Assembly (NCBI GenBank): GCA_947499635.1
Contig: CANMPD010000002.1
Span: 302,720-366,719, forward strand
Source of the DNA: an uncultured Paracoccaceae bacterium
Lineage (GTDB): Bacteria; Pseudomonadota; Alphaproteobacteria; Rhodobacterales; Rhodobacteraceae
DNA: 64,000 nt
Direction: 5' to 3'
In this document: piece after piece, positions 1 through 44,234 of the stretch
How the letters are laid out: the number at the start of each line of letters is the position of its first letter
How positions within the stretch are numbered: the first letter of the stretch is position 1
Program-made: the position numbers and the translations under genes
The notes under the pieces: generated by a model
Database searches by the model: none
What the model was told of the DNA's origin: nothing
What the model saw: the letters and a program-made list of their open reading frames with translations, nothing else

Positions 1-73
1 TCTCTCATCACGAAAAACCGATTAAATCCTGAATGCACAAAGATGCAAGGGTATCTGTGAAAGGTGTGATAAT

Positions 74-25359: not shown

Positions 25360-25469
25360 ATGCCTCTTGCCTCCTGCGACAGTTGTTCTACGTTTGCGCA
25401 GACCCTAGAACCATTTAGGGCTGACGAAAACCAAATTGCACAGCCTTGCTCAAAGAAGGAGCCGCGCGT

Positions 25470-25955
25470 ATGATCTCAGTAGGAACCGCCCTGCCAGACG
25501 CCACCCTAATCGAAATGACAGCAGAGGGCCCGGCCCCGGTTGCGCTTTCTGATAAAACCAAAGGCCGCAAAATTGTGATTTTTGCTGTCCCTGGCGCTTT
25601 CACCCCCACGTGCCATGCCGCACATGTGCCAAGTTTTATCCGTACCAAAGACCAGTTTTCCAACAAAGGCATTGATGAAATCATCTGCGTGTCCGCCAAC
25701 GATCCATTTGTCATGGGCGCTTGGGGTGAAGCAACAGGCGCCACCGCAGCAGGCCTCACCATGCTTGCGGATGCCGACAGCAGCTTTACAGACGCGATCG
25801 GTATGCGCTTTGACGCACCCCCTGCAGGTTTGATCGGGCGATCTAAACGTTATGCAATGCTGGTTGAGGATGGTGAGGTAAAAATCCTTCACCTCGAAGA
25901 AAGTCCTGGCACATGCGAAGTGTCTGCTGGCGAAGCGTTGCTGGATGCGCTGTAA
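25470..25955 (+). CDS. Peroxiredoxin (Prx5 type)
   Basis: A 161-residue thiol peroxidase. The peroxidatic cysteine is Cys48 in VPGAFTPTCHAAHVPSFI, the Prx5-subfamily signature; these enzymes reduce hydrogen peroxide and alkyl hydroperoxides with glutathione/glutaredoxin or thioredoxin. I chose the ATG at 25470 (AAGAAGGA upstream) over the track start 25446, because MISVGTALPDATL is the normal N-terminus. Transcribed divergently from the flavoprotein gene. Confidence 0.93.
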   Translation: MISVGTALPDATLIEMTAEGPAPVALSDKTKGRKIVIFAVPGAFTPTCHAAHVPSFIRTKDQFSNKGIDEIICVSANDPFVMGAWGEATGATAAGLTMLADADSSFTDAIGMRFDAPPAGLIGRSKRYAMLVEDGEVKILHLEESPGTCEVSAGEALLDAL

Positions 25956-43604: not shown

Positions 43605-44105
43605 CTAATTCGTCTGTTTCAAGACCCGCTCTGCGTCAATCGCTCGCGATACACCAGCTGACACAGACTGTGATGCCGTCGAAATCTCGATCCGGCGAGG
43701 TTTGAGCGCTTCAGGTATTTCACGCTGCAAATCAATATGTAGCATCCCGTTCTCATGCGACGCACCCGTTACACGAACATGGTCTGCTAAAGTAAAACGA
43801 CGCTCAAATGCACGTGTTGCAATACCTCGATGCAGATAGCTGCGTTGTGGCGTATCTGAGGCAGAATTCACCTTTTGTCCCACAACAACCAGAGCGTTTT
43901 CCTTTAGTTCTACATTCAAATCATCCGCGGAAAACCCTGCAACGGCAATCGAGATACGATAGCTGTCTGCATCAATTTTCTCAATGTTATACGGTGGGTA
44001 GCTTGATTGTGGCGTATCTGCAGACAAAGTGCGATCCAACAGATCTGCGATCTGGTCAAACCCAATGGTGGCACGGTGCAGCGGTGTAAAATCAAAAGTA
44101 CGCAT
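43605..44105 (-). CDS. Hsp20/alpha-crystallin small heat-shock protein
   Basis: A 166-residue small heat-shock chaperone, IbpA-like. It opens MRTFDFTPLHRATIGFDQIADLLDR, typical of proteobacterial Hsp20 class A, and the alpha-crystallin domain runs from about SYPPYNIEKIDADSYRISIAVAGF to ENGMLHIDLQREIPEALKPRRIEI. ATG 44105 is preceded by GAGGATGACT, and this ribosome site is paired in a ROSE-like hairpin (separate entry), which implies temperature-controlled translation. The ATG at 44117 of the track is upstream of that site and is less likely. Confidence 0.93.
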   Translation of the reverse strand: MRTFDFTPLHRATIGFDQIADLLDRTLSADTPQSSYPPYNIEKIDADSYRISIAVAGFSADDLNVELKENALVVVGQKVNSASDTPQRSYLHRGIATRAFERRFTLADHVRVTGASHENGMLHIDLQREIPEALKPRRIEISTASQSVSAGVSRAIDAERVLKQTN

Positions 44106-44127
44106 AGTCATCCTCATTCATGAGCAA
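44103..44127 (-). promoter_or_regulatory. ROSE-type RNA thermometer hairpin on the Hsp20 leader
   Basis: On the minus strand the leader reads TTGCT-CATGAATG-AGGA just before the start codon. UUGCU facing AGGA of the Shine-Dalgarno sequence, with one unpaired G and a closing CAU/AUG stem, is the conserved 3' hairpin of ROSE elements that control small heat-shock genes in alphaproteobacteria. Pairing would block the ribosome site at low temperature and melt on heating. Confidence 0.65.
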
Positions 44128-44234
44128 TTGTGAAATGTTACCTTCCCATCAGGACAGGCAGCTTAATATCAAGCCCCGCTTAGCGGCGACCCAACAATAT
44201 ACACATGGGACGTTGCTCTCTCATTTCAAGAGAG

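Follow-up and report, generated by a model that had tools for sequence, protein, structure and literature searches.

The hsp20 locus

The stretch of DNA analyzed here (the window: 64,000 nucleotides of contig CANMPD010000002.1, from an uncultured Paracoccaceae bacterium of the order Rhodobacterales) carries on its minus strand a gene for a small heat-shock protein, hsp20, downstream of a gene for a trypsin-like protease. The stop codon of the latter (TGA, 44237-44235) and the hsp20 start are separated by 129 nucleotides (nt), as the initial annotation of the locus had counted, and the RNA leader encoded in this gap is the subject of the present analysis. By its sequence, structure, place and promoter the leader is very probably (about 93%) a ROSE-type RNA thermometer, its temperature response being projected from relatives that have been studied. 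On the minus strand the sequence runs through TTGCT (44127-44123), CATGAATG (44122-44115), AGGA (44114-44111) and TGACT to the start codon ATG (44105-44103); the initial annotation had described the TTGCT and AGGA just 5' of the Hsp20 start correctly to the base, and its naming of the gene product agrees with the domain match in Table 1. A CCGC-TAA-GCGG stem that it had also reported upstream is present, albeit as only the inner half of a longer hairpin (hairpin I), while hairpin II, the part of the leader most similar to the Rfam model ROSE_2, had been missed. The start codon at 44105 is supported by all relatives in a comparison of the 80 best; the ATG at 44117 offered by the open reading frame finder overlaps the ribosome site.

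Table 1. Features of the hsp20 gene and its upstream region (positions in the window)
Feature	Position	Strand	Basis
Hsp20 (IbpA-like) small heat-shock protein, 166 amino acids, putative controlled gene	43605..44105	minus	PF00011, 65.7 bits; start backed by relatives
Shine-Dalgarno sequence AGGA, 5 nt from start codon	44111..44114	minus	Sequence; invariant among aligned relatives
Hairpin III, putative thermosensor: AUUGCUCA/UGAGGAU over the ribosome site, unpaired G at 44125	44110..44128	minus	
Hairpin II: GCCUGUCC/GGAAGGU, unpaired G at 44155	44139..44160	minus	Covariation; matches first hairpin of Rfam ROSE_2
Hairpin I: 10 pairs, unpaired G at 44187; includes CCGC-TAA-GCGG	44170..44193	minus	Covariation; folding energy
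RpoH (sigma-32) type promoter: CTTGAAA (44230-44224), 13 nt, TCCCAT (44210-44205)	44205..44230	minus	

Conservation and covariation of the leader

For comparison, the 80 best Hsp20 relatives were taken from the species collection; by their record titles almost all are Rhodobacteraceae. All 80 have U(U/C)GCU(C/U), 2-8 nt and AGGA directly 5' of the start codon, and their leaders share two further hairpins upstream. A covariance model of the three hairpins (R1), built from 26 sequences, matches 79 of the 80 relatives (54 of the 55 outside the building set); in the window its match spans 44194-44110 and scores 56.8 bits. Across the 80 sequences 99.2% of the paired cells hold a pair, in an alignment that was fitted to the structure, and 12 of the 21 pairs have changed on both sides; none of 500 shuffles reached the observed values for pairing and two-sided change, and with the partners slid by one column at most 59.7% of the cells pair. 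A plain MAFFT alignment of the 26 sequences gave 97.8% paired cells and seven pairs changed on both sides. From a plain alignment RNAalifold recovered hairpins I and III and lost hairpin II, owing to misalignment. The conserved UUGCU/AGGA pairing and the compensatory changes bear out the ROSE-type assignment of the initial annotation.

The three hairpins differ in how they have varied. Hairpin I (8 pairs modelled) keeps 98.9% of its cells paired with two-sided changes at seven of the eight pairs, which on the protein tree required at least 8 to 26 changes among the pairs listed. In hairpin II 99% of the cells keep their pairs and one pair exchanges U-A and C-G (33 and 42 of the 80 sequences); on the tree one pair of this hairpin changed 11 times. 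Hairpin III is paired in 99.6% of its cells and retains its unpaired G throughout; one pair changes from C-G to U-A in 10 sequences, about four changes on the tree, one of them on well-supported branches. As judged from these alignments, covariation demonstrates hairpins I and II; the evidence for hairpin III is chiefly its near-invariance, together with the one exchanged pair. Hairpin II and the UYGCU strand are more conserved in sequence than pairing would require, as might be expected if a trans-acting protein or small RNA bound the leader and the structure served as its binding site in hsp20 regulation; we consider this very improbable, and no candidate for such a factor emerged, although none was sought.

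A few records stand apart. The sole relative missed by R1, Falsirhodobacter sp. alg1 (L068:1913-1997), keeps hairpins I and III and has a divergent hairpin II, and one congener (L168:1501-1601) retains hairpins I and III and carries a long insert, GUCCCGUCAGAGGUCACAAGGACCGAGGGAGGG, in the loop of hairpin II. Contig L003, recorded under the name of the actinobacterium Nocardioides marinus, bears an hsp20 gene and leader typical of Rhodobacteraceae, with a protein 80% identical, and is probably a mislabelled or contaminated record. In two relatives Rfam matches to an FMN riboswitch and to the Ruegeria cis2 small RNA family were found near hsp20 (L029:4170-4304 (-) and L032:3328-3477 (+)).

Putative promoter and transcript start

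Scored against the RpoH consensus CTTGAAA/CCCCAT, the putative promoter matches at 12 of 13 letters. Matches of at least 10 of the 13 letters occur 89-108 nt upstream of the ATG in 77 of the 80 relatives; among single-base shuffled leaders 8% have such a match anywhere. From its position the promoter would place the transcript start 5' of hairpins I, II and III, and the mRNA would carry all three; a start downstream of the UUGCU is not indicated. The start may lie near 44198, just 5' of hairpin I, which would give an RNA leader of probably some 93 nt: the leader does lie in the gap, as the initial annotation had proposed, without filling all 129 nt. In Rhodobacter sphaeroides the TTG of the -35 element matters for both RpoH proteins (PMC3441632).

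The motif in the genome and the chance of an accidental match

Taken by itself, the UUGCU/AGGA motif is weak evidence. The pattern T(T/C)GCT-5..9-AGGA-4..9-(A/G)TG occurs 38 times in the whole 3.6-Mb genome, against 20 occurrences of a reversed control pattern, and only the two hsp20 leaders precede a small heat-shock gene among the 30 places read with their downstream frames. The bare motif is thus close to chance level and was therefore not used as evidence; our case rests on the comparison. A ribosome site with an accidental complement could by this count pass for a ROSE core, but the presence of the motif in all 80 relatives, its constant position and the covarying hairpins refute such an origin for the hsp20 leader, and we regard it as negligible. 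Elsewhere in the window (25446-25472, plus strand) TTGCTCAAAGAAGGAG precedes an open reading frame starting MISVGTALPDAT, which encodes a peroxiredoxin-like protein. This look-alike of the ROSE core has no flanking pairs and is likely due to chance.

Distribution

Of 198 genomes from the order, 167 (79 of 89 genera) contain the element according to R1, and 183 (85 of 89 genera) according to a refined model built from the 80 sequences (R2). All of the 74 sites in the order that were compared with hsp20 positions lay 3-8 nt upstream of hsp20 on the same strand. Across the class the element was matched in 22 of 289 genomes, of which 18 belong to other families; the four class-level sites outside the family that were comparable with hsp20 positions (two genomes) all precede hsp20.

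The genome of the window has one R1 match, and all 16 further genomes of the genus that are more than 90% complete have the element as well. The 16 congeners with a match carry UCGCU, the species of the window UUGCU. Hairpin III is computed to be weaker in the latter, and may therefore perhaps open at a lower temperature. A speculative and rather unlikely generalization is that the Rhodobacteraceae element forms a ROSE subclass of its own, with three hairpins that each have one unpaired G in the 5' strand, and that the choice of U or C in U(U/C)GCU adjusts the temperature of opening. The species of the window, alone among the 17 examined in its genus, has the weaker UUGCU and would on this reading open at a lower temperature. 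How such tuning works could be studied on the U/C variants that hairpin III shows in nature.

Folding energies

In its bulged-G form hairpin III is computed at -3.0 kcal/mol at 20 C and at 0 at 42 C, and with a G-G mismatch at -4.7 and -2.2 kcal/mol, respectively; G-G pairing occurs in ROSE1. Hairpins I and II still have -7.6 and -5.5 kcal/mol at 42 C (hairpin I: -9.0 kcal/mol at 37 C). These computed energies describe a weak sensor behind stable hairpins, a pattern that is compatible with a thermometer albeit not decisive. Folding of the whole leader across a range of temperatures yielded competing structures, with no clear switch. A pairing of GUGUA with UACAC of the coding region was false, arising from a folding run that began inside the promoter.

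A second hsp20 leader

The genome has a second hsp20 gene outside the window (contig C2, 280261-280668; L002:1471-1884 (-)), 48% identical to the first. In its leader (L002:1885-1945) an RpoH-like promoter is accompanied by two hairpins, ACGGUU[G]CC..GGGACCGU and CGUC[G]CUUU..AAAGGACG; the second lies over the ribosome site, and the start codon is GTG. Promoter and hairpins are conserved in relatives, and the relatives' leaders that were folded mostly give this same pair of hairpins. Hairpin II is absent, R1 misses this leader, and the layout of unpaired Gs is that of the window element. From its sequence we take it to be a shorter, two-hairpin version of the ROSE-like type.

Proposed mode of action and weighing of the evidence

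The proposed course of events is as follows. Transcription from the RpoH promoter would give the hsp20 mRNA a leader of about 93 nt. Hairpins I and II would remain folded, and in hairpin III UUGCUCA would pair with UGAGGA, which bears the ribosome site, leaving one G unpaired or mismatched. At normal temperature hairpin III would block ribosomes; heat would melt this weak hairpin and permit Hsp20 synthesis, the melting and the gain in translation being projected from the studied ROSE elements.

Several results weigh against a thermometer. The Rfam model ROSE_2 (RF01832) stays at 20 bits (E 0.11) in the window, below its cut-off of 65 bits. The folding stability of the whole leader is no better than that of shuffles (z -0.69). 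When partition functions were computed for the whole leader between 20 and 50 C, the ribosome site became more open slowly and without a sharp transition, the unpaired value going from 0.32 to 0.40 in the window and from 0.07 to 0.14 in relatives; as standard energies are unlikely to treat the non-standard pairs of ROSE elements well, we take this result as evidence neither way. Within hairpin III, moreover, a single pair has been exchanged on both sides, most of the covariation being in hairpins I and II.

A rival reading is a conserved, structured 5' untranslated region that mainly shields the mRNA from degradation or fixes the basal level of translation, with heat control by RpoH alone. Hairpins I and II are indeed stable and hold most of the covariation, little heat opening is computed for the whole leader, and for the first hairpin of Pseudomonas ibpA a stabilizing role has been discussed (PMC3669281). 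Yet in every relative it is the weak hairpin III that covers the ribosome site; it retains the unpaired G whose removal locks the sensor hairpin of the Pseudomonas element (PMC3669281), and the paralogous leader has the same hairpin III without hairpin II. A purely structural role is accordingly very improbable, and we favor the thermometer. If so, a very common group of marine bacteria would almost always place its main hsp20 gene under a ROSE-type thermometer that present Rfam models miss, and the alignment and model reported here are a ready extension of the ROSE families.

Comparison with known RNA thermometers

FourU thermometers, such as that of Salmonella agsA, likewise cover the ribosome site in front of a small heat-shock gene with a hairpin, in which UUUU stands opposite AGGA. 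This class was rejected: the window has UUGCU and all relatives U(U/C)GCU, and no four Us face the AGGA.

ROSE-like elements have been described as the commonest class of RNA thermometer, situated ahead of small heat-shock genes in alpha- and gammaproteobacteria (PMC3669281, PMC4166951). As the class is defined (PMC3669281), they lie in the 5' untranslated region of such a gene, the 3' hairpin joins U(U/C)GCU to the Shine-Dalgarno sequence by imperfect pairing, and one to three stable hairpins stand upstream; the ribosome site is covered in the cold and exposed in the heat, so that heat induces translation. The hsp20 leader has the first three of these features, hairpins I and II being the upstream ones, and for the fourth its computed energies are compatible albeit not decisive. 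The Pseudomonas ibpA element, a proven thermometer (PMC3669281), shares with it the RpoH promoter, a stable GC-rich hairpin, the short U(U/C)GCU sensor hairpin against the ribosome site, and the small heat-shock gene. It has two hairpins, whereas the window element has the extra 5' hairpin I, and its temperature response is proven, whereas here it is projected. ROSE1 of Bradyrhizobium hspA (RF00435) is also alphaproteobacterial, with several hairpins and a UUGCU strand that faces the ribosome site (in part from PMC3669281), but has four hairpins.

Among the Rfam models, ROSE_2 is the best match at the exact spot: it aligns over its full length (1-73) at 44173-44099, with both of its hairpins shared and UAUGCGUA at the start codon, and lacks the 5' hairpin I. 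A search with the ROSE models, as suggested with the initial annotation, gave no match at gathering scores in the whole window or in 20 relatives, and RF00435 had none at the site, with the window scanned whole or locally, at E up to 10. The ROSE_2 cut-off is passed in none of 61 genomes of the order; E. coli passes it. For Nautella sp. R11, of the Roseobacter clade, ROSE-like motifs have been mentioned on two small heat-shock genes, ibpA and hspD (PMC3230580), and the present genome likewise has two; that statement is a single sentence and, in the passages retrieved, comes without structure or alignment. The hsp20 leader is accordingly of the already known ROSE-like kind, and what is new lies only in its added first hairpin and in the gap that it exposes in the present RNA family models.
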